Source of the DNA: Chelativorans salis
Lineage (GTDB): Bacteria > Pseudomonadota > Alphaproteobacteria > Rhizobiales > Rhizobiaceae
DNA length: 64,000 nucleotides
Direction: 5' to 3'
NCBI RefSeq assembly: GCF_025336525.1
Contig: NZ_JAOCZP010000001.1
Span: forward strand, 620,001-684,000
Shown: positions 40,389 to 61,673 of the stretch, piece after piece
Numbering within the stretch: position 1 is the stretch's first letter
How the letters are laid out: every line of letters begins with the position of its first letter
Translations under genes and position numbers: made by a program
The notes under the pieces: generated by a model
Told to the model about the DNA's origin: nothing
The model's database searches: none
What the model saw: only the letters and a program-made list of their open reading frames with translations

Positions 40389-41159
40389 ATGCAGCTCATC
40401 CTTCAAGGCATCAGCCACCGCTACGGCGGCACGAACGTTCTGGAGGACATCTCGTTTGCCGTCGGCGACGGTGAGATCGTCTGTATCGTCGGGCCCTCGG
40501 GCTGCGGTAAGTCGACGCTGCTTCGGATCGCCGGCGGGCTGGAGCGGCCGGGCGAGGGCGAGGCGCTGATCGCCGGCAAGGCGCCGGAGGGCTCCCTCAA
40601 CCCGCTCACTTATATCTTCCAGGACTTTGCGCTTCTGCCCTGGCGCACGGTGGCGGGTAATGTCAGCCTGGTTCTTGAGGACCATGGCATCGAGACAAAA
40701 AGGCGGCGTGCCATCATCGACGACGTGCTTTCGCGCACCAATCTCTCCGACTTCGCGCATGCCCTGCCACGCCAGCTCTCCGGCGGCATGAAGCAGCGCG
40801 TGGCGATCGCCCGGGCGCTGGCCGTCAAGCCGGCGATCATGCTGATGGACGAGCCCCTGTCGGCACTCGACAGTCAGACGCGTGAATTGCTCATGGACGA
40901 CCTCGTGGCGCTATGGCAGCGCGAGCGCTTCTCCGCCTGCTATGTCACGCACAATCTGGCTGAAGCCGTGCGGCTCGGCCGGCGCATCGTCGTGCTCTCG
41001 CGGCGGCCGGGGCGCATCCGCGAGGTGGTGGATATCGACATGCCGCTTGCCGAGCGGCCGGAGCGGCTGGTCGAACTGGAAAAGCTGCAGCGGCGGGTGT
41101 GGGAGATCATGCGCGAGGAAGCGCGCGAAGCCGACAGGGAGATTTCCGATGTCGCATGA
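40389..41159 (+). CDS. NitT/TauT-type ABC transporter ATPase
   Basis: A 256-residue ATPase. Walker A is GPSGCGKST near residue 37, the Q-loop is IFQDFALLPW, and the signature is LSGGMKQRVAIARALA. Walker B is IMLMDEPLSALDSQT, followed by YVTHNLAEAVRLG. Length and C terminus (RPGRIREVVDIDMP) are typical of SsuB/TauB proteins. Its last 11 bases overlap the permease gene, so they are coupled. Confidence 0.93.
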   Translation: MQLILQGISHRYGGTNVLEDISFAVGDGEIVCIVGPSGCGKSTLLRIAGGLERPGEGEALIAGKAPEGSLNPLTYIFQDFALLPWRTVAGNVSLVLEDHGIETKRRRAIIDDVLSRTNLSDFAHALPRQLSGGMKQRVAIARALAVKPAIMLMDEPLSALDSQTRELLMDDLVALWQRERFSACYVTHNLAEAVRLGRRIVVLSRRPGRIREVVDIDMPLAERPERLVELEKLQRRVWEIMREEAREADREISDVA

Positions 41160-41997
41160 AGCGGCGTCGACCCAGGGCGCGGGGCGCGAAGAGGACACCG
41201 CGGCGCCCGAGGCAGCACGTCCGGTGCCCTTCCGCGGCGGCGGCTTCACGCACCGGCGGCTGGGGCCGGTGGCGCCGATTGTCTTTCTTGCCATCATCGC
41301 CCTGTGGGAGGCCGGCTCGCGCGCGGGCATCATCAGCCCCATCGCCCTGCCCGCCCCATCGGAAGCGCTTGGCGCGCTGGGCGACCTCGTTACCACCGGC
41401 ATGCTATGGAAGCACCTGGGCGCAAGCATCTACCGGCTTGGGCTCGGCTGGGTGCTGGGCAGCCTTGTGGGCATTTCTGTCGGCCTCATGGTCGGCCTCT
41501 TCTCGCTCGCCCGCGCCGGACTCCTGCCACTGGTCTCGGCCCTCTTTCCCATCCCGAAGATTGCGCTTCTGCCGCTCTTCATCATCTGGTTCGGCATCGG
41601 CGAGGGCTCAAAGGTGGCGACCATCCTTTTCGGCACCTTCTTTCCCACGGTGATCGCCACCTATGGCGGCGTCGACAATGTCGACCGGAACCTCATCCGC
41701 ATGGGTCAGTCCTTCGGCCTTTCGTGGCTGTCGATCGTGCGCAAGATCATCATCCCCGGCGCCATGCCGGCGATCCTGTCGGGCTTCCGCATCTCCGCCT
41801 CCATCGCCATCGTGCTTCTGGTGGCGGCGGAGATGATCGGCGCGGAAACGGGCATCGGCGCCTATATCCTGATGGCTGGCGCGCTTTTCGCGCTCGACCA
41901 ACTGATCGCCGGCGTGGCGCTTTTATCGATGCTCGGCCTTGCCATCGCTTGGCTGATCGGCCGCGCCGAACGGGCGCTTCTTTCCTGGCGAGCATGA
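41149..41997 (+). CDS. NitT/TauT-type ABC transporter permease
   Basis: A 282-residue inner-membrane permease. The start at 41149 overlaps the ATPase gene; the longer frame from 40882 reads antisense-like through that gene and is rejected. A charged N-terminal tail of about 35 residues precedes six membrane helices. The EAA-type loop lies in DRNLIRMGQSFGLSWLSIVRKIIIP (about 180-205), followed by PAILSGFRISASIAIVLLVAAEMIGA, highly typical of SsuC/TauC. This is the last gene before tRNA-Phe. Confidence 0.92.
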   Translation: MSHEAASTQGAGREEDTAAPEAARPVPFRGGGFTHRRLGPVAPIVFLAIIALWEAGSRAGIISPIALPAPSEALGALGDLVTTGMLWKHLGASIYRLGLGWVLGSLVGISVGLMVGLFSLARAGLLPLVSALFPIPKIALLPLFIIWFGIGEGSKVATILFGTFFPTVIATYGGVDNVDRNLIRMGQSFGLSWLSIVRKIIIPGAMPAILSGFRISASIAIVLLVAAEMIGAETGIGAYILMAGALFALDQLIAGVALLSMLGLAIAWLIGRAERALLSWRA

Positions 41998-42181
41998 GCC
42001 AACACCGCACCGCGCTCGACGACCGGCCGCCGCTTCGGGCGACTGGAAAAAACTCTCGCCAATTCCCTACCCAGGGCGCTGGACAGGGCAAAATCTCATG
42101 CTATAACCCACGCGCCTTCGGCGGAGCACCAACCCCGCCGGCCGGACGAGAGCGGGCTCACGCCCAACGGCAAAACGGCGC

Positions 42182-42257
<76 letters not shown>

Positions 42258-42352
42258 GCAACCCCAGGTTGCAGGACTGAAATCATAACTTACTGATTTT
42301 ATTTCCTTTATTTCTTTATACAACCGGAAATTCTGGTGCAAGGATGCTAATT

Positions 42353-42394
42353 TGACGGTATTTTTGACGGTCTCGTCCGCTTGGGTGACGGTAT
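42353..42394 (+). repeat. Repeated TGACGGTAT motifs inside the left end of the element
   Basis: TGACGGTAT at 42353-42361, TGACGGTCT at 42365-42373 and TGACGGTAT at 42386-42394 are direct repeats about 95-135 bp from the left att site. They match motifs near the right end, and the first two have the same 12-bp period as the right-end pair. The arrangement is like the arm-type binding sites of tyrosine integrases. Confidence 0.6.
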
Positions 42395-42563
42395 CGACCA
42401 ATTCGGTTGAATTTAGCTAAAGCCCTAATTGTGTTGAGTTTTTTTTTGCAATTTCAAGGGGTTCGGGTTCCCTACTTCGATTCCGGCGTGCGGAATCGAA
42501 CCGCCGCCAGGCGGGAAAGCGCGTGCTAGAATCGACCATGCTCTGATATGTATTTGACTGTGC

Positions 42564-42639
42564 TGAACCGCGCCGGGATTTCCCGGAGGCTGCTACTTCC
42601 ACAAGAGTTGGAGCCTCCGGCAAATCCCGGCGCGGTTCA
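42564..42639. other. Large stem-loop downstream of the SIR2/P-loop gene
   Basis: TGAACCGCGCCGGGATTT begins a left arm (to about 42591), and the right arm (about 42610-42639) is its inverted copy with a few mismatches. The loop is about 18 bases. It starts 27 bp after the stop of the SIR2/P-loop gene on the minus strand. It could be a terminator without a T-run, a palindromic repeat unit, or a folded element that matters for mobility. Confidence 0.65.
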
Positions 42640-42666
42640 ATGACGGACGTTGCCGCAGTTGAGCTG

Positions 42667-45144
42667 TTAATTCTCTTCAAGATACCCCGGTCCGTACGAC
42701 TCCTTCCAACTGCCGGTCGTTGCGAGGCTCATTACGTTGCTCACTGCCTCTTGGAGACGAGCGTTGACATGCTTCTTGCGCGCGACGAGCAGTTCGTTGG
42801 CATATTGCTGTGCGATAGTCTGGGTGCCTTCAACGCCGAAGAACTTCAGCATGACTGAGATGTGTCCCTCGGCTAGCGTCACGATGGGATATGTGTCTGT
42901 TGCATCGGCGACACGGTTTAGTGCGCGGAGCGCCTCTATCGCTTCATTGAGTAGCGGCTGCGCGTCGTCCCAGCTCAGAGACATCGAGGCGATGATCATC
43001 AGCTGCTGGGCATAGGCGTGTTCGATTTGCGGGGAAGTGTAAGCTTCGCGTGCGGTCTTTAACTTTTCGAGCGCTTCCGTTTGCTTGTTGAAGTCGCGCA
43101 GCGCAAGGCCATATTGGAGCCAGTAAAGTCCATCGATATGAAATTTTGTCTCAAATGCCTCATAAATAGATCGGACTTTGTCCTCATCATTACGCATCAT
43201 CTCCTTGATGAAACGATGATTTATGATTGACTTGAAAACGACACTGTCAGCCTTTCCGACATGCTTGATTACCGGGGCCTCATAGTCAGAGAACGCTTCT
43301 AAAACAGCGATAAGGCAATCCCTGATAATCGTCGTCGGCACAATTTTTTCAAAAAGTTCGCGGACATAAACTGGGTGTCGCGCAGAATACTTCTTACCGT
43401 CGGTCACGATAATGCCCTCGGTCTCACGCGATAAGATGTTGACGTCTTCTGCGATGCCTAGGTTTGAAAGAGCCGCCCCCACAATGTGGGAACTTAGCGT
43501 CGATCTATGAATGCTCGCAAGTCCGACAATAGTAAGAAACTTTTTGTGTTGGTCATCACCTGCATTTTTGAAGTCGTTGTCGATGATTTGCGTGAATCCG
43601 AAGCCGGTCGTCGCTTCCATCAAGCCTATGAGCAATTGCCGATCTGCTCTGCTGTATATTTCAGCGACGCGCTGCTCCTGCCTCATCTGTTGCAAGCGCG
43701 TCCAAGGCCCGAACTTCTCCAGCTTTTCTAGTATTCTTCCGGGATCGGCCTTGCGAATCTTCTCGACCTTAAACACCTTGGAAATGACAGGTTCTACGGC
43801 CGCTTTCACACGTCTGTTCCAGATGTTGAGCCTCTCCGAAGCGACAATGCAAACATGCCTTGTCTGCGGGCCCTCCAGCAGTTCTGCCACCTCGTTATGC
43901 ATCGCCTCCATCTTGTCGATGAACAAGTAGAACCTCGAAGAGTTGATCTGCTCCAGCGCAACGACGACCTCCTTAAGCTCGCTGACTGCCTCCCTCAGAA
44001 AATAGATGGGTGTGTTCGAGACCTTGCTAAGGTGCAGTGCGGTGATCATCAGCGCAGTACTTTTGCCAGAGCCCGCAGGCCCCACCAGGGCTATACACTT
44101 TCTACCTTCGTACCCTTCCTCAACGAGTTTTGAGAAATCCTTGATGAAAGCAAGGTCAGCTGGAACGCCGTCGAGTATGTCAACCCAGCGCGGCTTATAT
44201 CCCTTGTAAAACTCCCGAATTGCTCCAAGGGTGTGGTCCGAGCCGGAGTGCGGAAGGATATCTGCGCTTACGAGCGTGACACTGTTTAGTGCGCGCTTTT
44301 GTGGTTCGGTGAGCGCTCGATTGATGTTACGCAACTCTGGACGTCGTGCGGTAGCAAGATCCCATCCAGTTGGACGTTGTGGCATTTCGCGGCTGAGCCA
44401 CTCCGCGAAATCTTTCAGTGTGCCGGGCACGTGAACAAGGTTGAGGCTACTGAGATGATGTTTGTCGATCTCACTTGCGGATGGAGTTATTACGTATCCT
44501 TGAAGCGGCGCTCTTTTCACGATCGAACGCATCTCTGCCATGGCATGTTGAAAGAGCGGCTCGTTCAGCTTGCTGCCAACGAAAACAAAGGCGTAGTTGC
44601 TGTGGTTCTGGCCCAATTCACGGTACCAGATGGGAAGGCGATTTGAGCCCTCACCATACTCTTGAGGCGAAAATATAAAGCCGTCTTCCGGTCGATCAGC
44701 TGAGCCATTCAACTTAACGAGCTGCACATATTTGAATATCGGATCGATTTCTTCGAGCGGTGAATTTCGCGCAGAGATCTGAACATTCTGCGTTCTCGCC
44801 TTCCGTAGCGCTGTTTCGGTGCAGTCATCGATGTTCAGGGTGAAGATACGCAACCACGGAAAGGACGCGAGTGTTTGAAGTTCCGGCGATGGCCTTGTGT
44901 TGGTTAATCGCCTTCTTAGGAACGAGTGGAGTCGCGCAGAGTCGGTTGCGTCGATTGCGGAGTAGACGGTACTGAGCGCCTCGCCTTGATAGGACCACCC
45001 CATCAGTGCAGCGAGTTCTTTGGCAAGGTCGTCGCCCATGGGTATGTCAAGATTTTCAGAGTCGCGCGATCCAGAGGAGGCGCCGGCGCCGAGGAGAAGC
45101 ATCAGCCGGCCACTCAGATAGGCGTTCTTTATTTCAGGCAACAT
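42667..45144 (-). CDS. SIR2-like domain / P-loop NTPase protein, probable STAND-type anti-phage protein
   Basis: An 825-residue protein from ATG 45144, with GGAG seven bases upstream; an in-frame GTG at 45156 is possible. Residues about 1-265 are a SIR2-like domain with LLLGAGASSG (17-26), TLNIDD (102-107) and VKLNGS (143-148). SIR2 proteins normally have His at the Asn of KLNGS. Residues about 310-560 are a P-loop NTPase: GPAGSGKST at 355-363 and hydrophobic Walker B FYLFID near 405-410. The rest is helical and TPR-like. SIR2-NTPase-repeat proteins (Avs5 and other STAND families) sense phage proteins and deplete NAD+. That role is inferred from architecture and location on an att-flanked element. 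No partner gene is present, so it may act alone. Confidence 0.8.
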   Translation of the reverse strand: MLPEIKNAYLSGRLMLLLGAGASSGSRDSENLDIPMGDDLAKELAALMGWSYQGEALSTVYSAIDATDSARLHSFLRRRLTNTRPSPELQTLASFPWLRIFTLNIDDCTETALRKARTQNVQISARNSPLEEIDPIFKYVQLVKLNGSADRPEDGFIFSPQEYGEGSNRLPIWYRELGQNHSNYAFVFVGSKLNEPLFQHAMAEMRSIVKRAPLQGYVITPSASEIDKHHLSSLNLVHVPGTLKDFAEWLSREMPQRPTGWDLATARRPELRNINRALTEPQKRALNSVTLVSADILPHSGSDHTLGAIREFYKGYKPRWVDILDGVPADLAFIKDFSKLVEEGYEGRKCIALVGPAGSGKSTALMITALHLSKVSNTPIYFLREAVSELKEVVVALEQINSSRFYLFIDKMEAMHNEVAELLEGPQTRHVCIVASERLNIWNRRVKAAVEPVISKVFKVEKIRKADPGRILEKLEKFGPWTRLQQMRQEQRVAEIYSRADRQLLIGLMEATTGFGFTQIIDNDFKNAGDDQHKKFLTIVGLASIHRSTLSSHIVGAALSNLGIAEDVNILSRETEGIIVTDGKKYSARHPVYVRELFEKIVPTTIIRDCLIAVLEAFSDYEAPVIKHVGKADSVVFKSIINHRFIKEMMRNDEDKVRSIYEAFETKFHIDGLYWLQYGLALRDFNKQTEALEKLKTAREAYTSPQIEHAYAQQLMIIASMSLSWDDAQPLLNEAIEALRALNRVADATDTYPIVTLAEGHISVMLKFFGVEGTQTIAQQYANELLVARKKHVNARLQEAVSNVMSLATTGSWKESYGPGYLEEN

Positions 45145-45420
45145 TGGATGCTCCACGTCGTTGCGCCGCGACAGAGGTATTTCAATTTTCGCCAGAATAG
45201 TTCCCTCAAGCGCAGCCTATCGGAAATCGCGCATTGTGCGAAGGAATTGATGTGCGGGATCGGATATGATGGCGAGCCGCACAAGCTAATGAATGATTGT
45301 CCTAAGGGTGGCGAAGTTCAGTTTTCTAGTGAGTGGTAGTGTCGGTACTTTTGACGGTATCGGCGCTCGCCTCTATCAAAAAGGTATTTTTAAACAATAA
45401 GTTAGAACTCATGTGGGGTG
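45145..45420. other. Right end of the tRNA-Phe element, promoter side of the SIR2/P-loop gene
   Basis: No credible gene. It should carry the minus-strand promoter of the SIR2/P-loop gene, but no convincing -35/-10 pair stands out. TGTCGGTAC (45340-45348) and TGACGGTAT (45352-45360) lie about 60-80 bp from the right att site, in the same orientation and spacing as the left-end motifs. The end is A/T-rich (45380-45410). Confidence 0.55.
45340..45360 (+). repeat. Repeated TGACGGTAT-type motifs inside the right end of the element
   Basis: TGTCGGTAC and TGACGGTAT are 12 bp apart, matching the left-end pair at 42353 and 42365. Paired motifs at both ends suggest integrase arm sites. Confidence 0.55.
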
Positions 45421-45436
45421 CCGCCCCTGGGCACCA
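45421..45436 (+). repeat. Right attachment site (copy of tRNA-Phe 3' end)
   Basis: An exact 16-bp copy of the tRNA-Phe 3' end (CCGCCCCTGGGCACCA). Bases on either side do not match the tRNA, so only the crossover core is duplicated. Confidence 0.9.
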
Positions 45437-45866
45437 TCCCCTCTTCTCCCGACATCCTCTTTCGCCGAAGCTTCTACGCAGAAATCTCAGCAAGTATCTG
45501 AACTTACTTGCCTTTCATGTTCAGGCAGTTCAGCATAAGGAAGTGCTTGAGTCTTCCGCTCTGCGCCACAATCTGCGGTCCGGAAAACAAGACTTTGATG
45601 AACGAGCGGATAAGGGCGGAATTGCTCGCCTTCGAGAAGGTCCGCTAATGGCTCCGGGATTCAGAGGTGCTAACGTCCGAGATGGCGACTTCCGCCATTG
45701 CTGCCTCACTGCACCAACGTCAGCTTATCCGTTTTCTCGGCCAAAACCGGACAGGCAGCTTTCGGCCCTCAGTGGTCGTTGAGCTTTTTCATCTCAAGGA
45801 TCTACACCGCAAATTCTATGGGGGGTATAAAAACGCCTATGGTGCTAGGTGGTAGTGCCGGGCTAT
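45437..45866. other. Gene-free stretch right of the element
   Basis: No frame with a ribosome-binding site or recognisable product. The plus-strand frames of 60-150 codons here have broken composition and may be gene debris, but I cannot name a source. No clear terminator or repeat is seen. Confidence 0.4.
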
Positions 45867-46256
45867 CTAGCCGAGGTCGGTCTGGATCCAACGCGGCGAA
45901 TGGTGGACGTCTATCGTCTGTAAGCGCCCTGGTCCCAGATTTTCGAACCGGTGCGGGATGCCGGCCGGGCCAAACACAACCTGACCGGCAGTCGCGTCGA
46001 GAACTGTGTCTCCAACGAAAAAGCGGGCCCGACCCTCGGTCACGACAAACACCTCGTCATAGGGATGCACGTGAAGACGTGGGCCTTCGCCAGTGCGGTC
46101 GGTGCCGTAAGCGAGCACGGTCACCGGTGCTCCGAGCGCTTCACCCGGCAAAGAGCCACGCCAGGGACCTTCAGCACCTGGATCGAAAAGCGTTGCCTGA
46201 GCAGGCGCGCTTCCGCTTGGCTTGACCGAATTGACGTCGAAATCATTGCGCGTCAT
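45867..46256 (-). CDS. Cupin-domain protein
   Basis: A 129-residue single-domain cupin, probably cytoplasmic. The metal-binding motif 1 is seen as LHVHPYDEVFVVTEGRARF (His-x-His...Glu, about residues 61-79), and motif 2 as GQVVFGPAGIPHRFENLG with its His. Small cupins of this type may be isomerases, dioxygenases or sugar/metabolite sensors; none can be chosen. Its ATG is one base after the stop of a 56-codon ORF, which in turn overlaps the VOC gene, so the three are probably one operon. Confidence 0.82.
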   Translation of the reverse strand: MTRNDFDVNSVKPSGSAPAQATLFDPGAEGPWRGSLPGEALGAPVTVLAYGTDRTGEGPRLHVHPYDEVFVVTEGRARFFVGDTVLDATAGQVVFGPAGIPHRFENLGPGRLQTIDVHHSPRWIQTDLG

Positions 46257-46257
46257 G

Positions 46258-46428
46258 TCATCTCTCGCGAATGGTCCATCTCTCTATTTCGCAGTTCAGT
46301 ATGAAGCCCGCCGGCGTATCCAGGGCCGCGACCCGAATTGCCCTGCATCGCAGTTCCAATCTCTGGATATCTGGCGCGGCAAAGTGCGCTGTCTGGTCGT
46401 CCCTTCCTTGCGTCGGCGAAACGCTCAT
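46258..46428 (-). CDS. Small ORF of 56 residues between VOC and cupin genes
   Basis: The ATG at 46428 overlaps the TGA of the VOC gene (ATGA), and the TGA is one base before the cupin ATG. This perfect fit suggests translational coupling and a real gene. The product starts MSVSPTQGRDDQTAHFAAPD and continues with a beta-like segment (LELRCRAIRVAAL), then GFILNCEIERWTIRER. It has two cysteines and no signal or membrane segment. No family is recognised. It may instead be a decayed remnant that keeps reading frame by chance, but the two tight junctions argue for function. Confidence 0.5.
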   Translation of the reverse strand: MSVSPTQGRDDQTAHFAAPDIQRLELRCRAIRVAALDTPAGFILNCEIERWTIRER

Positions 46429-46808
46429 GCGCTGTTCAGATGGAGGATGTTGCCGTCAGGGTCCTTGAACCAGACCATCTTGAACCCGTTCGCGTCGTGG
46501 ACCCCGTCCTTGTATGACACGCCCTCCATCTCATAGCGCTCGAACGTCACACCCTTGGCACCCAGGTCGGCAACGATGGCGTCGATATCTGGTCCGCAGT
46601 CCCACACCACGGCATTGGCCTCGTTGGTGCCGGCGAATTCCGAAGGGTAGACGACCAGATACGTCGCACCCGTCTTGTAGACCAGCGCGCCTTCCATGCC
46701 TTCGTCGTTGAGTTCCAGCCCCAGTATATCGCTGTAGAAACGCCTCGCCCGATCGATGTCGCTCACCGCGACAATGGCCGAGGAAGACTTGTCGTTGAGT
46801 GCATTCAT
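46425..46808 (-). CDS. VOC-superfamily (glyoxalase/bleomycin-resistance type) protein
   Basis: A 127-residue protein starting at 46808, with AAGGAGA seven bases upstream. The single VOC fold has two beta-alpha-beta-beta-beta units (AIVAVSDIDRARRFYSDILGLELNDEG and DIDAIVADLGAKGVTFERYE). It ends MVWFKDPDGNILHLNSA, the usual C-terminal metal-site region. Members are glyoxalase-like lyases, dioxygenases or binding proteins, usually dimeric. It is the first gene of the VOC-small ORF-cupin unit. Confidence 0.85.
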   Translation of the reverse strand: MNALNDKSSSAIVAVSDIDRARRFYSDILGLELNDEGMEGALVYKTGATYLVVYPSEFAGTNEANAVVWDCGPDIDAIVADLGAKGVTFERYEMEGVSYKDGVHDANGFKMVWFKDPDGNILHLNSA

Positions 46809-47219
46809 GGAATGTCTCCTTGATTGACATTCAAAGGACGAATGAGCTGCTTCGGTTCCGACACCCAAGAGGGAGGTCTCGGCAAATATGCAGAAAGTGA
46901 CACAAACAAACGAGGCTGCATCGGAGATGCCAAATGTCCGCTATTCGCCTCCCGGCCCCGAAAGCTGACGGTCAACTTACGGTCCCCAAAAAGCATCCGT
47001 CAGAGCCGTCCGTTTCGCGCCTCAATGTCGGCCGTTGAGGCAAACCTTTGCCTCCGCCCGCAAGCGACCATGCTGGAGTTCGTGGTTGTGCCAAGAACAG
47101 CCATTCAAACGCCGCTGCAGCAGTGACTGTTATGAAGGGACGGCAGCCTTCCTCAACCCGGTAGAGTAAAGGTCGAGCTCGCCAGAGTCCCCACGGACGG
47201 GCCGGACTTAGTGGCTCAC
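46809..47219. other. Gene-free stretch between the VOC and sulfatase genes
   Basis: No frame with a plausible start, ribosome-binding site or family match. The region should hold the promoter of the minus-strand VOC operon and the end of the sulfatase transcript, but no clear hairpin with T-run is seen. Confidence 0.4.
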
Positions 47220-48779
47220 CTATGCGAGGCGCGTCGCTCGCGGACTTTCCTCCATGTTGCGGATCATCTCGTGTACAAGGCGATCCGTGAGTTCAGCGCG
47301 GATGTGCCGATGCGCCTTATCATCCCATAGGTTCCGCGTCTCGCCCGGGTCGGCCTTGCGATCGTAGAGTTCGCCCCAGTCTTCGTCCTTAAACACCGTC
47401 ATGCGCCAGCGGTCGGTGAGAAGGCAGCGCGCACGGGCTGGCTTGTCGAATCCCATGCGTGGGCCGCCGTCATGGTGTTCGATAAGCATAGCGTCGCGAA
47501 CGGGGCGGCCGTCCTGGATGTTTGGAAGCAGGCTCTTCCCCTGCATGCCCCAATAGGGAGCAACGCCCGCGCGGTCGAGGATTGTCGCCGATATGTCGAT
47601 CGTCGAAGCGAGTGTACGCGAGGTGCACGCCCTCCGGTCGGAGGGATCCGCCCAGATGAAAGGCGTGCGTGTGATGGCGCGCGTCGGCAGCGGTCCCTTC
47701 AGCAGCAGGTTGTAGTCGCCGAGATAGTCACCATGGTCCGAGGTAAAGATGACGATCGTATCCTCAGCCTGCCCGGATTCCTCCAGCGCGGTCAGCACCT
47801 GGCCGATTCTGTCGTCGATCATGGTGATCATGCCGGCGGTGAGCGCCATCGCCTCGCGCAAGGCTTGATCATCCGCATAGAACGCCGCCTGGGATATGGC
47901 TTCGCGTTCGCCCTGCTCCCAGCGTTTGCGCAGATATCGCAGCGGTGGCGGCGGGTTTTCATGTGCCGAATACGGCAAGCCGATCTCGAACTGCTCGGGC
48001 TGGTACATTGACCAGTACTTGCCGGGCGGGTTGAAGGGATGGTGCGGGTCGGGAAACGATACAAAGGCGAAGAACGGGGCGTCGCTACCCGCCTGCTCGC
48101 GGATCCAGGCGGCCGCGCGGTCGGCGATCCAGGCGGTGGGATAGGACTCCTCGGGAACGGGTGTCCGATAGGCCTGAGGACAGCTGTAATTGTGCGGCAA
48201 CTCGTTGGCGGGGTCATACAGTTCCCGCCAGTTCGGATGCGTCCGGCGGAACCACTGCCCGTAATGGCCGCCGCATTTGTCGCCGTGATCCGTGACCATC
48301 TCGACGTGCTGGTAGCCGTAGTAAGGCGTGCGGACCGTATAGACCTCCTCGCCGGCATAGCTGCCGGGTTGCTCCTCCTCATAGGGCACGACATCGGGCT
48401 TCCAGGCCTCGGCGATCGGCCCGGTCTCAGGGACTGGCCCGCCCTTCGGTCTGTTCGACGAAAACGGCTGCAAGTGGCTCTTGCCGATCGTGGCAGTCCG
48501 ATATCCATCGGCGGCAAGCACCTCGACAAAGGTGTTGGTGCGCTCCGATAGCACACAGCCGTTGTGACGCAGTCCGTGCACAGAAGGATAGCGTCCGGTC
48601 AGTAGCGACGCCCTGTTGGGCATACAAACGGGCAGGGCTACGTGAAAATCGTCGAAGCGTGTGCCGCGTGCCGCCAGCGAATCGATATTCGGGGTTCGCA
48701 CAACCGTGTGACCGTAGCAGCCGAGCCAATCTGCCCGATGCTGATCCGTGATGAACAGCAGGAAGTTCGGTTTGCGCAT
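47220..48779 (-). CDS. Sulfatase (type I, cysteine formylglycine-dependent)
   Basis: A 519-residue sulfatase. The N terminus NFLLFITDQHRADWLGCYG supplies the metal aspartates. The activating signature CMPNRASLLTGR fits C-x-P-x-R-x3-L-T-G-R, with the formylglycine cysteine at residue 52. Further metal ligands appear in FTSDHGDYLGDYNLL. No signal peptide is visible, so it is likely cytoplasmic. It is 12 bp downstream of a GntR gene on the same strand, and across the divergent promoter lies a TRAP importer. It may remove sulfate from an organosulfate or phosphonate/choline-type ester that the importer brings in. A maturation enzyme is not in the window. Confidence 0.88.
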   Translation of the reverse strand: MRKPNFLLFITDQHRADWLGCYGHTVVRTPNIDSLAARGTRFDDFHVALPVCMPNRASLLTGRYPSVHGLRHNGCVLSERTNTFVEVLAADGYRTATIGKSHLQPFSSNRPKGGPVPETGPIAEAWKPDVVPYEEEQPGSYAGEEVYTVRTPYYGYQHVEMVTDHGDKCGGHYGQWFRRTHPNWRELYDPANELPHNYSCPQAYRTPVPEESYPTAWIADRAAAWIREQAGSDAPFFAFVSFPDPHHPFNPPGKYWSMYQPEQFEIGLPYSAHENPPPPLRYLRKRWEQGEREAISQAAFYADDQALREAMALTAGMITMIDDRIGQVLTALEESGQAEDTIVIFTSDHGDYLGDYNLLLKGPLPTRAITRTPFIWADPSDRRACTSRTLASTIDISATILDRAGVAPYWGMQGKSLLPNIQDGRPVRDAMLIEHHDGGPRMGFDKPARARCLLTDRWRMTVFKDEDWGELYDRKADPGETRNLWDDKAHRHIRAELTDRLVHEMIRNMEESPRATRLA

Positions 48780-48791
48780 CTGCCCCCCAAA

Positions 48792-49514
48792 TCAGCTCGC
48801 TTCATCCGTGCGCTGATTGGCTGCGTTTTTGTTGATGTTGGTGAAGAGTTGGTCCGCCCTCTGTAGGGGCAATAGTCCATGTTCGCGCATAAGAAACTCG
48901 GCACGCGTTCCTTCGCCTTTTCGAATGGCGTCCACGAGCCGGATGTGGTCGCGCTGGGCGTCGATCAGGGCGGCGCGTCCTTCCTCATCGGGCAGGAAAT
49001 GCAAAAGCGGCGCGGAGCGAAACGGATTGCGCACCATCAGCCGTTGCAGCGCGGTATTGCCAGCAAATGCCGCGATCGAGGTGTGAAAGCGGTCATTGAT
49101 CCGGGCAAATTCACGAAACGTCTCGGGGTCATGGCGCTTTGACGCGATAAGCTCCGCAATCCCATTGAGGCATTCCTGCAACGTAGCATTCTGATCGGGT
49201 TCGAGACCCTTTTCCGCAAGCAGGCGTGCCGCCATTCCTTCGAGCACGGCGCGCACCTCCATGATCTCGCGCATGTCCTCGATGGAGAAACGCCGAACGC
49301 GAAAGCCGCGATTTGGCGCCCCTTCCACGAGGTCTTCCCTTTCCAGCGTGGCCAGCGCCAACCGGACCGGCGTTCGCGAAACAGCCAACCGTGCTGCCAA
49401 TCCGGTCTCCGTCAGCCGCTCACCCTGAACAAGCGTTCCGTTCATAATGAGCTCACGCAGCTTGCTGGTCACCTCCTCGGTGCTGTTGATCCCGCCCCTG
49501 AGTTCAGAATGCAT
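48792..49514 (-). CDS. GntR-family transcriptional regulator, FadR subfamily (FCD domain)
   Basis: A 240-residue regulator from ATG 49514; upstream in-frame starts would run into the divergent promoter. The winged helix-turn-helix is at about residues 12-75 (LRELIMNGTLVQGERLTETGLAARLAVSRTPVRLALATLE). The C-terminal FCD domain has the expected metal and ligand residues (Asp/His in FARINDRFHTSIAAFAGN and His in AQRDHIRLVDAI). It forms an operon with the sulfatase gene. A palindrome overlaps its own start, so it is probably autoregulated. Confidence 0.9.
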   Translation of the reverse strand: MHSELRGGINSTEEVTSKLRELIMNGTLVQGERLTETGLAARLAVSRTPVRLALATLEREDLVEGAPNRGFRVRRFSIEDMREIMEVRAVLEGMAARLLAEKGLEPDQNATLQECLNGIAELIASKRHDPETFREFARINDRFHTSIAAFAGNTALQRLMVRNPFRSAPLLHFLPDEEGRAALIDAQRDHIRLVDAIRKGEGTRAEFLMREHGLLPLQRADQLFTNINKNAANQRTDEAS

Positions 49515-49520
49515 GCAATT
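49508..49520. promoter_or_regulatory. Candidate GntR operator overlapping the gntR start
   Basis: AATGCATGCAATT contains the dyad core TGCATGCA around the ATG of the GntR gene. It is nearly the same as the site 84 bp away. A repressor bound here would block its own gene. Confidence 0.5.
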
Positions 49521-49591
49521 TATCCACTCGCTGTTTTTGAACTTCCCTAATTCTCCCTTATGTCGATAAAATGCAACCCCTCTCTTGTTGA

Positions 49592-49603
49592 ATTGCATGC
49601 AAT
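49592..49603. promoter_or_regulatory. Candidate GntR operator upstream of the TRAP genes
   Basis: ATTGCATGCAAT is a perfect 12-bp palindrome, 68 bp before the TRAP binding-protein start, sharing the TGCATGCAAT sequence with the site over the gntR start. GntR/FCD proteins bind short palindromes of this kind. Confidence 0.55.
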
Positions 49604-49671
49604 CTTGTGTAATCGTTTCGCCAGAGGATGTGCTGGCGGAAGCCGCGCCGTCCCAAAATGGGAGGAAACCT

Positions 49672-50694
49672 ATGAGACACACTACGCGTAAAGTGGCGGG
49701 TGCTATTGCCGCTGTTAGCCTGTCGCTCTGCGCCACCGCCGCTGGGGCGGAGACCGTCAGGATCGAGACAGGCACGTCGGCCGGCCTGACGACGCTGATC
49801 CCACAGCTCCTGGCCAAGTCGCTTTCCAACGAAGGCGTGGATTTCCGCATCAATGCGGATCAGACGTTGACCCGATCGGCCCTCAGTCTCGGCGTCGGCC
49901 GCATCGACGCGGCCATCGTCCCGCCGCCGGCCTTCAACGCAATGTCGCGCGGCGTCGGTCCCTACAAGGATAGCGCGGATCAGGCCAAGGCGACCGCGGC
50001 GGAGCTGCGTAGCCTGTTCCCCTTCGCGGGAGGCGTCTTCCATCCCATCGTCTGGGCCGATTCCGGCATCGAAACCTGGGAAGACATGAGGGGCAAGCGC
50101 ATCTTCATTGGCCCGCCGGCCGGCGCGGCCAATCAGCAGATTACGACCCTCATCAGGTTGGCGAGCGGGGGCTTCGAGCCAGACAAGGACTATACGCCCG
50201 TGCGGCTCGGCTGGGGCGCGGCCATACCTTCCTTCCAGGATGGTCAGTTTGATGTGCTCGTTATGTCGTCGCCGGCCGGCGGCGCCGCAATCGAACAGAT
50301 CGGCCTGCAGCGCAAAATTCGGCTGATCGGTGTTCCCGCCGAGGTCCTCAAGACCGAGGAGTGGGCCGAGCAGTTGGAGGTCACGGGCGAGACGAATGCA
50401 GTCATCGCGCCGGGAACATATTCGGGTCAGGATAACAGCGATGAGGAGATCGCCGTTCCTGCCTATGCCATGGTCTTCGCTGTGAACAGGAAGATGGACG
50501 ACGATCTCGCCTACATCATCACGAAGACCTACTGGGAGAACATCGACGAATACAAGAAATCGGTCGCGGAACTGGCGCAACTCCCTACAAGCGAGCCCTT
50601 GGCCGGCAACAACATTCCATTACATCCGGGCGCCGTACGCTACTATGAGGAGGAGGGGATGGCCATTCCCGACCGGCTGATGGCGAACCAGTAG
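49672..50694 (+). CDS. TAXI-family TRAP transporter solute-binding protein
   Basis: A 340-residue periplasmic binding protein. The start at 49672 follows GGGAGGAAA, and the signal peptide is MRHTTRKVAGAIAAVSLSLCATAAGA. The mature protein begins ETVRIETGTSAGLTTLIPQLLAK and continues with VGRIDAAIVPPPAFNAM and KRIFIGPPAGAANQQITTLI, the TAXI pattern. TAXI proteins feed a fused TRAP permease, which is the next gene. Ligands of the class are mostly unknown; some bind glutamate or other organic acids. The GntR-sulfatase neighbours hint at a sulfated or sulfonated organic ligand. Confidence 0.88.
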   Translation: MRHTTRKVAGAIAAVSLSLCATAAGAETVRIETGTSAGLTTLIPQLLAKSLSNEGVDFRINADQTLTRSALSLGVGRIDAAIVPPPAFNAMSRGVGPYKDSADQAKATAAELRSLFPFAGGVFHPIVWADSGIETWEDMRGKRIFIGPPAGAANQQITTLIRLASGGFEPDKDYTPVRLGWGAAIPSFQDGQFDVLVMSSPAGGAAIEQIGLQRKIRLIGVPAEVLKTEEWAEQLEVTGETNAVIAPGTYSGQDNSDEEIAVPAYAMVFAVNRKMDDDLAYIITKTYWENIDEYKKSVAELAQLPTSEPLAGNNIPLHPGAVRYYEEEGMAIPDRLMANQ

Positions 50695-50737
50695 TCCCGA
50701 ACCCGGTACCGGCACCATCCGCTGAAGAGCCATTCAT

Positions 50738-52663
50738 ATGGAAGACGTCAAACCCGGGACGCCTCGCTTCGACGTCCGCATGCGGGTCGTCCTCACCTTG
50801 TCGTTCCTGATGGCGCTCATACCGCTGGCGCACAAGATGCCCTCGTTCGGCCCCCTTCCCAGTCTCGGGCCGTTCGAGGCGGAACCGTTCCGAAGCAGCG
50901 TCATGGCGTTTTGCCTGCTGATCTGCGTCGTACTCCATCCGTTCGGAATCAATCGCGAGGGAAAACCGCGGCCGCTCGGCCTCCTCGTTGATGCAACACT
51001 GCTCGCCGTTGGCCTCTGGGCGTGCTGGCGCTTCTATGTCGACGTGACGGCGATGCACACCAGTATCGTCTTCTTCGAGGAGTGGCAGGCGTGGACGGCG
51101 CTGGGCGTGTGCGTCGTGCTGATCATCATGACATGGCGCATCTGGGGAGCGGCGCTCGCAATCGTCTCATCGGTCGCGCTCGCCTGGTTCCTGTGGAGCT
51201 TCCGTGACGACTGGGTGCAGGCAGCCACGGAAAACCTGTGGCTCGTGCTCGACGACGGCGTGCTTGGCAATGTCACCGACGTCGTCCTCAGCACGGTCTT
51301 TCCGTTCATCGTCCTGGGCGCGATGTTGGAGGGCACGGGCGCCGGCGGGTCGATGATCCGCATTTCCTACCACCTCATGCGTCGGTTCAGGGGCGGACCG
51401 GCGCATGCCGCCATTCTGGCGTCCGCCTTCTTTGGGGCGATCTCCGGCTCGGCAGTCGCCAATGTAGTCGGAACCGGAGTGATCACCATCCCCTTGATCA
51501 AGCGAAGGAAGTTTTCTCCCGAGTTCGCCGGCGGTGTGGAAGCAGCCGCCTCCACCGGAGGACAGGTGATGCCGCCGATCATGGGTGCCGCCGCGCTCGT
51601 GATGGCGGACCTGGTGGGGCTCAATTACCTCCTGATCATTACCGCCGCGCTGATCCCGGCGCTCGCCTATTACGGAGCGCTTTTTGCCTCTGTCGTCTTC
51701 GAATGCCGGCGCCTCAACGTCGAGGTGGCGGAGACTGTCGAAGCTGATTTGGCCGTCACCCCGCAGGATTGGCTCAATCTCATCCTCGTCGCCGCTCCGC
51801 TGCTGGCCATTGTCACCTGCCTGATCATCGGACTGTCGCCGACAGGTGCGGCGCTGACTGCGCTTGCCCTTCTGATACCCTTGAGCTTTCTCAACCCGGC
51901 GGTGCGCCGGCGGCCCTTCGCTCTCGTCGAAGCGTTCGCGCATGGCGGGCTGAGCTTTGCAAGGCTGATGATGGCGGTCGGCGCGATCGGGATCGTGATC
52001 GCGTCAATGTCGTCGACCGGGCTGCCGACCATGTTCGCGCTCCAACTCGACGCGTTCTCGGCCCACAGCCTCCTGATCACGCTAATCGTCGCCGCCATCG
52101 GCTGCATCATGCTGGGCATGGGCATGCCGACGCTGCCCGCCTATCTGACGATCATCATCATTAGCGGCAGTTCGATGATGGCGCTCGGCCTCGCACCGTT
52201 GACCGCTCACTTCTTTGTCTTTTACTTCGGTGTCGCGTCCGCAATCACGCCGCCGGTGGCCATCGCAGCATATGCGGCGGCCGCAATATCCGGCGGCAAT
52301 CCCATCCGCACCGGCGTGGCAGCGGTCCGAATCGGCGGAGCGATCTTTGCCATCCCGTTCATGTTCGTCTTCAATCCCGAGATGCTCGTCGTCAGCCAGG
52401 CTGCCGCCGACGCCGGGCCGGCGTCCGTGCTCCTTGTCATCCTCCGCACCGGCCTGATGGTTTGGATGATGACGTCGGCAGCTAACCGGTACGATGCGAG
52501 ACGGCTGCATCCGTGGGAGATCGTTTTGCGCCTGACGCTGGCTGCCGCTCTGATCGTTCCGGCCCCGCCGATTCATTGGGCTGCGATTGCTGTGGCGCTT
52601 GGCTCAGTCGTCTGGCATCGCTACTCGCCAAAAGTTGCCTCCGCTCGCGAAACGTCTTCCTGA
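50738..52663 (+). CDS. TRAP transporter fused permease (4TM/12TM type)
   Basis: A 641-residue inner-membrane permease in which the small DctQ-like and large DctM-like subunits are fused, as is usual with TAXI binding proteins. About four helices precede residue 200. The DctM part starts near GNVTDVVLSTVFPFIVLGAMLEGTGAG and carries SAVANVVGTGVITIPLI, GGQVMPPIMGAAALVMAD, and GMGMPTLPAYLTIIIISGSSMM. It lies 43 bp after the binding-protein gene. Transport uses an ion gradient rather than ATP. A damaged dnaE2 fragment follows. Confidence 0.92.
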   Translation: MEDVKPGTPRFDVRMRVVLTLSFLMALIPLAHKMPSFGPLPSLGPFEAEPFRSSVMAFCLLICVVLHPFGINREGKPRPLGLLVDATLLAVGLWACWRFYVDVTAMHTSIVFFEEWQAWTALGVCVVLIIMTWRIWGAALAIVSSVALAWFLWSFRDDWVQAATENLWLVLDDGVLGNVTDVVLSTVFPFIVLGAMLEGTGAGGSMIRISYHLMRRFRGGPAHAAILASAFFGAISGSAVANVVGTGVITIPLIKRRKFSPEFAGGVEAAASTGGQVMPPIMGAAALVMADLVGLNYLLIITAALIPALAYYGALFASVVFECRRLNVEVAETVEADLAVTPQDWLNLILVAAPLLAIVTCLIIGLSPTGAALTALALLIPLSFLNPAVRRRPFALVEAFAHGGLSFARLMMAVGAIGIVIASMSSTGLPTMFALQLDAFSAHSLLITLIVAAIGCIMLGMGMPTLPAYLTIIIISGSSMMALGLAPLTAHFFVFYFGVASAITPPVAIAAYAAAAISGGNPIRTGVAAVRIGGAIFAIPFMFVFNPEMLVVSQAAADAGPASVLLVILRTGLMVWMMTSAANRYDARRLHPWEIVLRLTLAAALIVPAPPIHWAAIAVALGSVVWHRYSPKVASARETSS

Positions 52664-52690
52664 AGTAACCGCGTGACCGGACAAGGCCGC

Positions 52691-52830
52691 ATCGTCTGGA
52701 CCAAGGTCTAAGAAAAGTACCGGCGTGTCGTGCTCGGATCCGGCATGAGGGTCGCATCCAGCGCGAAGGCGATGTGGTGCACATCGTGGCGCACGAACTC
52801 ACCGATCTCTCTGCCGAGCTGACCAGCGCT
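52691..52830 (+). pseudogene. Remnant of error-prone DNA polymerase C terminus (DnaE2/ImuC)
   Basis: The plus strand reads IVWTKV-stop-EKYRRVVLGS in one frame and then ARIRHEGRIQREGDVVHIVAH, followed by ELTDLSAEL, in another. This matches the OB-fold end of DnaE2 (the family reads about VWPKVFEKYRRVVLGARL, then GRIQREGDVVHVVA and LTDLSAELAS). An in-frame TAA replaces a Phe codon and one frameshift is needed. Nothing of the upstream polymerase domains is present. It is a dead end fragment, presumably left by recombination. Confidence 0.8.
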
Positions 52831-53093
52831 ATCGCTGAACTGGGTCGAATATCCCGACTCTCGTCCGTTCCTTACGCCGGCACTAACCGGACCAAGTTCG
52901 AAGGATCGGACCGAACTCCTCTCAGCGTATACGAACGCGCCGCGGAACGCGCGCGAGTCAGCGCCGCCCGCAAAGCTCTTCAAGCCGGACAAGCTCTTTG
53001 CCCGGACCGCCCATTCCGGGGCGGGTAAAAAGGCTGGCGCAGCCGACGCGCACAATGCTATTTGCGAGCTCAAAAGGTTGGAGATGATTTCAG

Positions 53094-54206
53094 ATGCTGA
53101 CACGGCGCCAGCTGATGCTTGGACTGACCAGCGTCGGGGCCAGCGCATGCGTGCCGGATAAGATGGCTCTGGAGAACGTGATCTCACCGGATCGTACACC
53201 GTCATCTCCTTCCCTCAAGGTTCTGGGAGCTAGGCGAGGCCTGGAAATCGGCTCTGCATTCAATGGCAATGGCGATCCCAAATATCGACGGCTGCTCGCA
53301 AAACACTGCGGACTGATCGTCCCCGAATGGCAGCTCAAGCCGCGTTTCCTGAGACCCAACCACTCATCGTCCTATCGCTTCGGTCCCTGCGACAAGATCG
53401 CGGCTTTTGCCGCCTCCAACCGAATGGATTTTCACGGGCATACGCTCTTCTGGCATGAAGAGCCGATCCGCTGGGTAGAGAGCAACGACTTCGCGGAGGT
53501 CAAGAGGGGCTATGGCGGCTTCATCCGCGACGTCGTCGCCCATTACCCGCGCGCCGTCTCGTGGGACGTATTCAACGAGATCATCGGCGACCGGCATAAG
53601 TATCGCAACGAGTTTCTGATCCGCAAGTTCGGCCCGAAATTCATCGACTTCGCCCTGAGAACCACGCATGAGGTGGCACCCCGAGCACGGCTGTCCATCA
53701 ATGAATACAACCTGGAATGCGGTGCCAGTTGGTGCCGATCGAAGCAGGACAGCATGCTGGCGCTGTTGAAGGAACTCAAACGCCAGAAGACGCCCATCCA
53801 TGCCGTTGGCATCCAGGGCCATCTTTCCTCTATTCATCCGGCTTCCCCGTCGGCCACCCTCTCTTTCATCGATCGGGTGGCCGATCTCGGCTTGGATGTC
53901 TACATCTCGGAACTGGACGTGAACGATTCCACCATGCCGAAGGATATCGCGACGCGAGACCGGATGGTGGCCGACTATTATGAGGAGTTCCTCACTGCGG
54001 TGCTACGCCGACCGGCCGTGAAACGGCTCGTATTCTGGGGCATCTCCGACTTCGACAACTGGATTGTCAGACGATACACCCAGGAGAAACGGCCATTGGG
54101 CGCAGGCGACGCAAGACCCGCCCTCTTCGACAGCAACAACGAGCCGAAGCCGGCCTTCGACGCCGTCGTCCGCGCTCTCGGCGGCACCTCGTCGCGGACG
54201 GCTTAG
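53094..54206 (+). CDS. GH10 glycoside hydrolase (endo-1,4-beta-xylanase-like), exported
   Basis: A 370-residue hydrolase. The N terminus MLTRRQLMLGLTSVGASAC combines a twin-arginine-like start with a hydrophobic stretch, so it is probably exported; the cysteine at 19 could be lipidated, but the lipobox is poor. The GH10 barrel shows MDFHGHTLFWHEE (111-123), the acid/base Glu at 162 in SWDVFNEI, and the nucleophile Glu at 273 in ISELD. VGIQGHLS lies between. Family members cut beta-1,4-xylan or related glycans. It sits in an exopolysaccharide locus beside a UDP-xylose-synthase-like gene, so it may trim or release a self-made xylose-containing polymer rather than feed on plant xylan. It converges on the UDP-sugar dehydrogenase gene, 15 bp away. 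Confidence 0.87.
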   Translation: MLTRRQLMLGLTSVGASACVPDKMALENVISPDRTPSSPSLKVLGARRGLEIGSAFNGNGDPKYRRLLAKHCGLIVPEWQLKPRFLRPNHSSSYRFGPCDKIAAFAASNRMDFHGHTLFWHEEPIRWVESNDFAEVKRGYGGFIRDVVAHYPRAVSWDVFNEIIGDRHKYRNEFLIRKFGPKFIDFALRTTHEVAPRARLSINEYNLECGASWCRSKQDSMLALLKELKRQKTPIHAVGIQGHLSSIHPASPSATLSFIDRVADLGLDVYISELDVNDSTMPKDIATRDRMVADYYEEFLTAVLRRPAVKRLVFWGISDFDNWIVRRYTQEKRPLGAGDARPALFDSNNEPKPAFDAVVRALGGTSSRTA

Positions 54207-54221
54207 GCCGCCCGCGCAGCG

Positions 54222-55568
54222 CTATGCCTTGATCACCCGCCCGCAGACGATCCCCTTGCGCTGCATGACATTGCGTGTATCGACAATCAGCCTCGCGTGA
54301 TTGGCCACCAGACCGTAATCAACCTGGTCGTGGTCGGTGATGATTACAACGGCGTCATAAGCAGCAATCGAATCCCGGTTCAACCGAATGTAGTCCTTGC
54401 CGGCAAGCGTCGGGTGCTTTCGCGTCTTGGGTATCTTTGCCACATGCGGATCGTGATAGGCGATATCAGCCACTTTGCTCGCCAAAAGCTCGATCAGCTT
54501 CAACGCCGGGCTCTCACGCACATCGGACACGTTCTTCTTGTACGCAACGCCGAGGATCAGCACGGAGGCCTGACTAAGCGGCAGGCCGAGATTCTTGTCC
54601 AGCGCGTCGATCAGTTTCTCCATAACATAGTACGGCATCATCAGGTTGATCTCGCCGGCGAGTTCGATGAAGCGGGTGGGAACGTCGAACTCCCGCGACT
54701 TCCAGGTGAGGTAGAACGGATCGATGGGAATGCAGTGCCCGCCCAGCCCGGGCCCCGGATAGAAGGGCATATAGCCGAAGGGCTTGGTCTTGGCCGCCTC
54801 GATCACCTCCCAGACGTCGATCCCCATCGCCGCGTAGATCACCTTCAGTTCGTTTACCAGGGCGATGTTGACGGCACGGAAGATATTCTCCGTGAGTTTG
54901 ACGACCTCGGCCACCTTGATGCTGGAAACCGGAACGATTTCCTGCACGAACGCGCCATAAAACTTGGCAACCAAATTGGCTGCGGCGGGGCCGTCGCCAG
55001 CCACCACTTTGGGGATCGTCGCCGTTTCGAAGCCGGCGCTGCCCGGATCCTCGCGCTCGGGAGAGTATCCGAGGAAGAAGTCGCGGCCGGAGCGGAGCCC
55101 GCTCTGCTCCAAGATCGGCTTCATGAGCTCATCGGTCGTGCCGGGATAGGTCGTGGACTCAAGCACGATGAGCTGGTCCCGCCGCAGGTGCCGCGCAATC
55201 TCCCGCGTCGTCTGCTCAACAAATGAAAGGTCTGGCTCCCGTTGCTTCGTAAGCGGCGTGGGAATGCATATGGAGATGACATCGCATTCGGCGAGCAGCC
55301 TTCCATCGGTGGTGGCGCTGAAGCGCCCAGCGTCGATCTGCGCCTGCAGGTCCTTGTCGGCCACGGCATCTATGTAGGACCGACCTGCCAAGAGCTTGTC
55401 GATCTTGGATGGGTCGACATCGAAACCGATGACCTTGAAACCCGCCTTTGCAGCTGCAGCCGCGAGCGGCAGGCCGACATATCCAAGTCCGACCACGCCG
55501 ACTGTAGCGGCTCGCGTTTCGAGGTTGAAGAGAAGAGTGGCACCTCTGGCCGGGGCGATGATGTTCAT
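54222..55568 (-). CDS. UDP-sugar 6-dehydrogenase (UDP-N-acetylhexosamine/UDP-glucose class)
   Basis: A 448-residue cytoplasmic enzyme. The start at 55568 has AGGAG seven bases upstream. The NAD motif is VGVVGLGYVGLPLA (23-36). The catalytic cysteine is in GLGGHCIPIDPFYL (Cys 279), a form seen in WbpA/WecC/TviB-type UDP-HexNAc dehydrogenases rather than in classic UDP-glucose dehydrogenases (GGSCFPKD). The C-terminal domain has GVAYKKNVSDVRESPAL. It would make a UDP-uronic acid for polysaccharide synthesis. If it accepts UDP-glucose, its product would feed the UDP-xylose-synthase-like enzyme across the divergent promoter. Confidence 0.87.
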   Translation of the reverse strand: MNIIAPARGATLLFNLETRAATVGVVGLGYVGLPLAAAAAKAGFKVIGFDVDPSKIDKLLAGRSYIDAVADKDLQAQIDAGRFSATTDGRLLAECDVISICIPTPLTKQREPDLSFVEQTTREIARHLRRDQLIVLESTTYPGTTDELMKPILEQSGLRSGRDFFLGYSPEREDPGSAGFETATIPKVVAGDGPAAANLVAKFYGAFVQEIVPVSSIKVAEVVKLTENIFRAVNIALVNELKVIYAAMGIDVWEVIEAAKTKPFGYMPFYPGPGLGGHCIPIDPFYLTWKSREFDVPTRFIELAGEINLMMPYYVMEKLIDALDKNLGLPLSQASVLILGVAYKKNVSDVRESPALKLIELLASKVADIAYHDPHVAKIPKTRKHPTLAGKDYIRLNRDSIAAYDAVVIITDHDQVDYGLVANHARLIVDTRNVMQRKGIVCGRVIKA

Positions 55569-56001
55569 GCGGTACTCCTGACACAGACCTGAAGGCACAC
55601 CTTCAGGTGCAAAAAACCATCTGGGCCGCGAGAAAACTTCTGGATTGTCTATTTTCAGGACGGAAGTTTTTCCGTGGGCGCACCAAGAGCTCCGCAAATA
55701 TTGTGCCAAGGAATATTTGAGGGGCCATCGCTACTGGCAAGTGCATGAAATGGAAGGGAATCAAGGCCGGCGCGGAGTGCCAAGAGTCAATCTGTCAAGA
55801 TGGAGCGCCTGTATTATTATGATATACACTCGTGCCAAAATGATACATAGTCAAATTTCTTCATAAATCACAGTATCTTGTCTTGATTTTCCAATTAACT
55901 ATTCAGTAATATTGCGATTGCTTTTCCTGTGGATATCGAGTTTTTGATACGGGGAAGCGTCGCCGTGGATATTTCACGGCCAGTTGTTCGGGGAGCGATC
56001 G
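55569..56001. other. AT-rich divergent promoter region of the exopolysaccharide locus
   Basis: A 433-bp gap with no credible gene. The part 55800-55950 is far richer in A/T than the window as a whole, with runs such as TATTATTATGATATA and TTCAGTAATATTG. Such regions are typical targets of MucR/Ros-type silencers of rhizobial exopolysaccharide genes; no specific operator can be named. A 73-codon frame from 55645 begins with TTG and lacks a good ribosome-binding site, so it is not called. Confidence 0.5.
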
Positions 56002-61194: not shown

Positions 61195-61424
61195 CGGTGG
61201 CTCGAACAGGCGCTTAAGGTAGGTGTGGGCCAGCAAGAATCTGCGGTGGCGTTGAGGCGAAAACCAGGAAGCTGGGACGTATCGCCGATCACAGCGTGGG
61301 AGCTGTTGATCGCCGCGCGAAAGAGATCCACCCAACCTGGGCGACAGCTCGCCTGCGCGCTCGTTCTCCGCCGCGGTTGCGGCCACGGCGGCAAAGATTA
61401 TCCCGATCAAACAAGGGATCGCCA

Positions 61425-61655: not shown

Positions 61656-61673
61656 CCGGGCGCATCCGGTATC

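Follow-up and report, generated by a model that had tools for sequence, protein, structure and literature searches.

How does a piece of DNA come to lie between two precise attachment sites in a bacterial chromosome when no integrase gene is found in it? The question is raised by a 3,179-bp unit in Chelativorans salis (Rhizobiaceae), which lies in the stretch of 64,000 nucleotides analysed here (assembly GCF_025336525.1, contig NZ_JAOCZP010000001.1, positions 620,001 to 684,000), hereafter the window, whose coordinates are used throughout. The unit is delimited by a 16-bp repeat of the 3' end of a tRNA-Phe gene and contains one long gene, which encodes a protein resembling the immunity sensor Avs5. 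I argue that it is probably a mini-element of the cis-mobilizable (CIME) type, made of a P4/IntS-type attachment site split over two ends and of a single immunity gene. In what follows G000 is the source genome, and the comparison set comprises one genome per species.

The insertion target is a tRNA-Phe (GAA) gene at 42182-42257 on the forward strand, the final 16 bp of which (42242-42257) form the left core. The right, distal core is an exact copy of this tRNA end in the same orientation, at 45421-45436. These two copies of CCGCCCCTGGGCACCA are the sole matches in the window at up to two mismatches, where 0.11 would be expected, and the only exact ones in the whole genome (5.66 Mb, 19 contigs), so that the 16-mer does not recur at unlinked sites. 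The DNA between them (42258-45420) has a GC content of 51.4%, against 62.7% for the window. On the left, 41000-42257 shares 90-91% identity with two genomes of the same genus, G002 and G015, and is therefore common chromosome. Within the unit, the sole long open reading frame (ORF) occupies 42667-45156 on the reverse strand and spans 829 codons from a GTG, or 825 from an ATG four codons further in. The first-pass annotation had described about 3.18 kb of lower-GC DNA bracketed by a 16-bp tRNA-Phe repeat, with a single real, defence-like gene; the tRNA call, the two exact cores, the composition, the one long ORF and its Pfam domains agree with this description and support a site-specific insertion. 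As to the empty site that the annotation proposed to look for, the 25-bp tRNA end is present in one copy in 10 of the 16 genomes of the genus and in two copies in 2, with no exact copy in the other 4. The source genome itself is among the 10, since its distal copy extends over just 16 bp, and G002 is likewise such a case. The 16-mer, counted in five genomes of the genus, occurs once in G007, twice in G000 and G002, and not in G003 or G005.

What makes these ends look like those of an integrative element is the set of arm-type sites that accompanies the cores. Three sites follow the left core, TGACGGTATT (42353-42362, 96 bp past the core), TGACGGTCTC (42365-42374, 108 bp) and TGACGGTATC (42386-42395, 129 bp), and two precede the right core, TGTCGGTACT (45340-45349, 81 bp ahead of it) and again TGACGGTATC (45352-45361, 69 bp ahead). 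All five are on the forward strand, with 0 to 2 mismatches to TGNYGGTATC; some of the positions differ by one base between two readings, the later of which is used. Four TGACGGTATC sites at up to two mismatches lie in the terminal 200 bp at the two ends, whereas 500 shuffles gave 0.23 on average and at most 3, and the arm pair with 12-bp spacing occurs twice in the window against 0.09 expected. The layout recurs elsewhere. The right pair lies at -81/-69 here, at -80/-68 in a small element of another genus (G048, described below), and at -82/-70 or -83/-71 in five of six ends at guaA, while G002 and G050 have a single site, TGTTGGTATT, at -82 and -83, respectively. The spacings of the left triple, 12 and 21 bp here, are 12 and 18 bp in the integrase-bearing left end of G079. 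Near the right core, a further motif, CAATAAGTTAG (45395-45405, forward strand), has counterparts by eye in G048 (CAATATCTTAG) and in G119 (CAATGAGTTAG). A segment of the left end (42490-42514) resembles, in inverted orientation, the T-arm region of tRNA-Phe (88% over 25 bp).

The closest studied relative of this arrangement is the attachment site of ICEMlSymR7A, an integrative and conjugative element (ICE) of Mesorhizobium. As described for that element, the 283-bp attP contains five arm sites for the integrase IntS, of consensus TGKTGGTATC and all required, and attP together with intS suffices for integration at phe-tRNA (PMC11963761, PMC5882170). The arms there seem to be split three and two as well, to go by the text, which places P3 at the intS-side end. 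The target, a core derived from the 3' end of the tRNA (17 bp in ICEMlSymR7A, 16 bp here) and five similar arm sites are common to the two (PMC11963761, PMC5882170). By contrast, ICEMlSymR7A is a 502-kb conjugative element with intS and rdfS (PMC4334631), whereas the present unit carries no intS; the arm consensus also differs, TGKTGGTATC against TGACGGTATC, and no 10-mer of the unit matches the former with fewer than two mismatches. The joined attachment site is predicted to measure about 235 bp, and arm-type sites at both ends could serve a foreign integrase.

The absence of an own integrase, asserted by the first-pass annotation, was borne out by profile scans. An integrase profile built here matched none of the 44 ORFs of at least 40 codons between 42200 and 45500. 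The genome has 13 Phage_integrase (PF00589) places, none in or near the element, and two Arm-DNA-bind_3 (PF13356) places, neither in the element; the searches did not cover serine recombinases, though the unit has a single long ORF. For the one full P4-type integrase of the genome (C14), ARAGORN called no tRNA closer than 14 kb, its start lacks a TGNYGGTA site, and an exact TGACGGTATC lies about 4.5 kb beyond it; the source genome yielded no integrase with arm sites to match. Nor was any integrase with these arms found at tRNA-Phe among 397 genomes of the order and 394 of the family. The combination of a tRNA end with TGACGGTA 82-112 bp downstream was matched in 8 of the 397 order genomes (2 control matches); besides G000, six of these have no tRNA nearby and one is G584 (L067), in which the match starts at a tRNA-Leu end, a TGACGGTATC site comes about 105 bp later and the 3 kb examined show no integrase. 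In the family, the same pattern gave 6 of 394 genomes (4 control matches), and the only tRNA sites were those of G000 and G048. Among 297 family genomes, 12 had the arm pair at up to two mismatches, at 14 places in all, against 6 control matches; seven of these places were examined closely, and L201, L207, L210, L211 and L212 were merely listed. A scan of the genome contigs for a core followed by GCAACC returned at least 118 stretches, and no tRNA-Phe site was among the 80 loci checked for motifs. Viral contigs yielded no joined attP, and two matches to core plus arm, both without a tRNA.

Is an integrase-less element unusual at this site, as the annotation had held? This part of the claim was weakened. 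Seven islands have two exact tRNA-Phe cores on one contig, the definition used for the count, which leaves out eight genomes with copies on different contigs (G012, G036, G046, G050, G095, G103, G209 and G307). A tyrosine recombinase is present in three of the seven (G011, G116, G137); in the other four (G000, G002, G048, G119) no integrase was found, serine recombinases not having been searched for. Absence alone is therefore not rare at tRNA-Phe. The two tiny elements, those of G000 and G048, are the extreme among the integrase-less islands. The G002 island (L058-L059) measures 26 kb between exact cores, shows no integrase match in 402 ORFs, and has similar sequence after both cores, in a tandem-like fashion.

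G048 belongs to another genus of the same family. Its 1.9-kb element lies between two exact cores, shares its initial GCAACC with the element of the window and carries TGACGGTATC-type sites at either end, with no integrase found; its left end is less regular, with one site in the same orientation and one inverted. The cargo differs: one ORF encodes a toxin like Gp49/HigB (74.9 bits), another an HTH_37 antitoxin (64.9 bits), and two further ORFs have no Pfam match. The right flank resembles the sequence that follows tRNA-Phe in G007, G009 and G013, and a left end of this type was seen in one of four genomes of that genus. Similar arms also occur at another target, since six of the seven closely examined arm-pair places precede a copy of the guaA 3' end, an identity confirmed by Pfam in G034 only. 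It looks as if one arm-binding specificity had been joined to two core specificities, guaA and tRNA-Phe. A motif scan of the guaA stretches, which are mostly partial, showed no integrase. The islands at the guaA 3' end (L203, L204, L205, L206, L208 and L214) have the arm motif TGACGGTATTTTTGACGGTATC in common with the tRNA-Phe mini-elements. The only one seen whole, an 8.7-kb island of G034 (L227), has no integrase-profile match in 119 ORFs and carries a peptidase as well as caspase-like and WD40-like proteins, named by eye.

A clue to how the integrase may have been lost comes from G011, of the same genus as the source. Its 19.7-kb tRNA-Phe island contains a relative of the long gene (90% protein and 86% DNA identity), in the same orientation and adjoining the distal core as here, with a P4-type integrase directly downstream. 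The refuting case named by the annotation, the same gene at this place without a second repeat, does not arise in G011, which has a second copy of the tRNA end, of 47 bp. The island differs from the present element by its integrase, this longer repeat, other end sequences and about 16 kb more cargo. It also holds ThiF-like, ATPase, HSP90-like and ImmA-like genes, named by eye (L056-L057), and is possibly a small defence island. DNA identity to G011 stops at 42640, at the edge of a 76-bp palindrome (42564-42639, without strand) that resembles a miniature inverted-repeat transposable element (MITE) made of IS3-family ends, and the place of this palindrome is occupied in G011 by the integrase. 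Sequence similar to the palindrome or to one of its halves is found in 169 plasmid records (210 places); an annotated IS3-family transposase adjoins three of the seven places opened, and full-length copies of 73-75 bp lie on Agrobacterium and Paracoccus plasmids. No target duplication is visible. A MITE at the point where identity breaks off hints at a deletion without proving it. The G011 ends being of another type, that island is not simply the parent, and a plain deletion product of it was set aside. The hairpin was also considered as an RNA family and set aside, the only matches being to sub-threshold microRNA models.

The DNA to the right of the element carries probable traces of a different island. 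The sequence that follows the right core, beginning with TCCCCTCTTCTCCCGACA, is similar to that found directly after tRNA-Phe in G079 (47/57 bp) and G050 (41/57 bp), which belong to two other genera, and again to that after the distal core in G050 (43/57 bp); in a control on the first 41 bp, other positions of the compared loci, taken at 7-base steps, matched 26 bp at best. A P4-type integrase begins about 200 bp beyond the junction in G079, and in G050 an ORF very like it, known by its translation only, begins at 213 bp. These junctions represent the site without the 3.2-kb element. Since the right junction is similar to tRNA-Phe junctions that lead into an integrase, the element probably sits in front of the stump of an older IntS-type island, the left end of which would be 45437-45508 (forward strand). 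A remnant of the G079 integrase itself was sought in the window and set aside, with no match by tblastn and none in the profile scan.

The cargo gene encodes a SIR2 domain (SIR2_2, 35.1 bits for a cut-off of 24.5), an nSTAND NTPase (nSTAND_NTPase5, 77.5 bits for a cut-off of 34) and C-terminal helical repeats. PADLOC gave weak ThsA-type matches (best 29.6 bits), and the NCBIfam Avs5 model scored 18.7 bits, below its cut-off of 1000; the protein is therefore called Avs5-like and not filed as Avs5. Its predicted structure (predicted local distance difference test 73, predicted template modelling score 0.46) has as best Foldseek matches EfAvs5 (9jap, E 3.9e-22, template modelling score 0.40) and the AVAST5 filament (9nc9). 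A second structure comparison (VIA) aligned Avs5 over 670-730 residues but at a root-mean-square deviation of 22-24 Å (Z 18.5 for the alignment of 730 residues at 24 Å), and the single SIR2 domains of ThsA and KomC with a Z of 19.6 at 3-4 Å. The model is consistent with the SIR2-STAND fold of Avs5 over the whole length. PaAvs5-1 and EfAvs5 (AVAST type 5) are described as SIR2-STAND-repeat proteins with GAGXS, TxNxD, NG in place of HG and a conserved Glu (PMC12931631); the architecture is the same here, and GAGAS, N108, D110, N150-G151 and E199 correspond to the PaAvs5-1 motifs, among them the unusual NG. N108, D110, G151 and E199 are conserved in seven of seven sequences, and N150 in six (H in the other), in both of the alignments made. 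The ratio of nonsynonymous to synonymous substitution rates against G011 is 0.089, and the gene is under purifying selection. Relatives of the gene are spread over elements of several types, prophages included. Within the family, a match at E ≤1e-20 was present in 9 of 394 genomes in a draw without G011, a 51% relative lies near a Mu-type transposase in G002, and relatives in viral contigs (79%, 40%, three of 37%, and 30%) stand, in the two that were opened (L258, L259), among capsid, tail-tube and baseplate genes. Neither the gene nor the left end had a match in the phage records searched.

To which known class should such an element be assigned? Phage-inducible chromosomal islands carry their own integrase and regulation or packaging genes; the present element, with one long gene, does not fit this class. 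CIMEs keep attL and attR, lack integration genes, derive by their loss from ICEs or from integrative and mobilizable elements, and can be mobilised by a related element (PMC5704250). The element likewise keeps both attachment sites, with exact cores and arm-type sites at each end, has no integration gene in the Pfam and profile scans, and probably adjoins a second, decayed element in a tandem arrangement at this tRNA. It departs from a CIME in its single immunity gene, its recurring five-arm layout and the lack of any integrase-bearing parent among the islands found. It is set apart from known cases by its size and by this layout, together with the existence of a sister element outside the genus.

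The first-pass annotation had left the choice between a satellite moved in trans and a relic stripped of its integrase. A foreign integrase could use the arm-type sites at both ends, and no matching integrase is found in the genome; the relic appears to fit slightly better because the position of the MITE corresponds to that of the integrase in the related island of G011. The MITE thus leans towards a rescuable relic, while the sister element in G048 leans towards a lineage that borrows its integrase. In that second account, integrase-free satellites made of an attachment site and a cassette are regularly moved in trans by ICE-type integrases at tRNA-Phe. The G048 element, with similar ends, another cassette and no integrase, speaks for it, as do the exact distal cores of both elements and the lack of an integrase at both tRNA-Phe sites with such ends among the 394 family genomes. 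However, there are just two examples, one with a less regular left end; no integrase with these arms was found at tRNA-Phe, and no joined attP in viral contigs; and the MITE suggests rearrangement. I consider a living lineage of this kind rather doubtful. Two other accounts fare worse. The element might be part of a larger composite island that an integrase further away moves as one, in which case the inner core would be just an internal scar: for some kilobases to the right the GC content (0.54-0.62) stays under that of the left flank (0.65-0.69), and the right junction resembles the left end of another island. With no further core copy in the genome and no integrase-profile match among the 270 ORFs of 45437-64000, this is quite improbable. 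Finally, the gene is common to G011 and the ends are not, hence the gene itself moved between backgrounds, and one could imagine ordinary homologous recombination beside a chance repeat, with no site-specific event; cores, arm sites and junction exceed chance in the controls run, which makes such a coincidence hardly credible.

The preferred reading, a cis-mobilizable mini-element, has its own difficulties. The 2.8-kb interior contains three more arm-like sites at up to two mismatches, and among the five arm sites one misses the consensus by one base and another by two. In view of its full-length plasmid copies the MITE could be a separate insertion, and no island was found from which the element could arise by deletion. 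The integrase searches have weak points as well. The genome-wide PF00589 search missed the integrase of G116, which PF13356 found and Pfam recognised in the translated ORF (39.4 bits); absence from an island therefore rests on PF00589, PF13356, tblastn, the ORF motif scan and the built profile taken together. The tblastn used two integrase queries and was not run in that form on G000 and G048, and the controls of the built profile came from its own training sequences.

If the cis-mobilizable reading holds, the element would have entered through an IntS-type tyrosine recombinase, its own or that of another element; an own integrase would since have been deleted, leaving the IS3-type MITE at the breakpoint. 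Excision or re-integration might still occur if such an enzyme entered the cell. Meanwhile the immunity gene would help to retain the stranded element in the population. A phage protein would bind the C-terminal repeats of the Avs5-like sensor, the STAND ATPase would then let the protein assemble, and the SIR2 domain would consume NAD+, so that infection fails. Should the G048 element instead typify the group, Rhizobiaceae would harbour a lineage of elements reduced to a five-arm attachment site, split in two, and a cassette for immunity or of toxin-antitoxin type. Borrowed ICE-type tyrosine recombinases would let it spread between genera at tRNA-Phe; it would be the integrative-element counterpart of a MITE or of an integrase-less cassette array, a proposal I put forward tentatively.

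The titles and abstract openings consulted contain no report of such a tRNA-Phe element with a lone immunity gene. The element is a very small natural test case of whether an immunity gene can travel on attachment sites alone, and IntS of Mesorhizobium R7A, the closest studied integrase, already has a mini-element assay (PMC11963761, PMC5882170). If movement in trans works, defence genes lying between bare attachment sites would have to be counted as mobile, and island finders that look for an integrase first would miss them.

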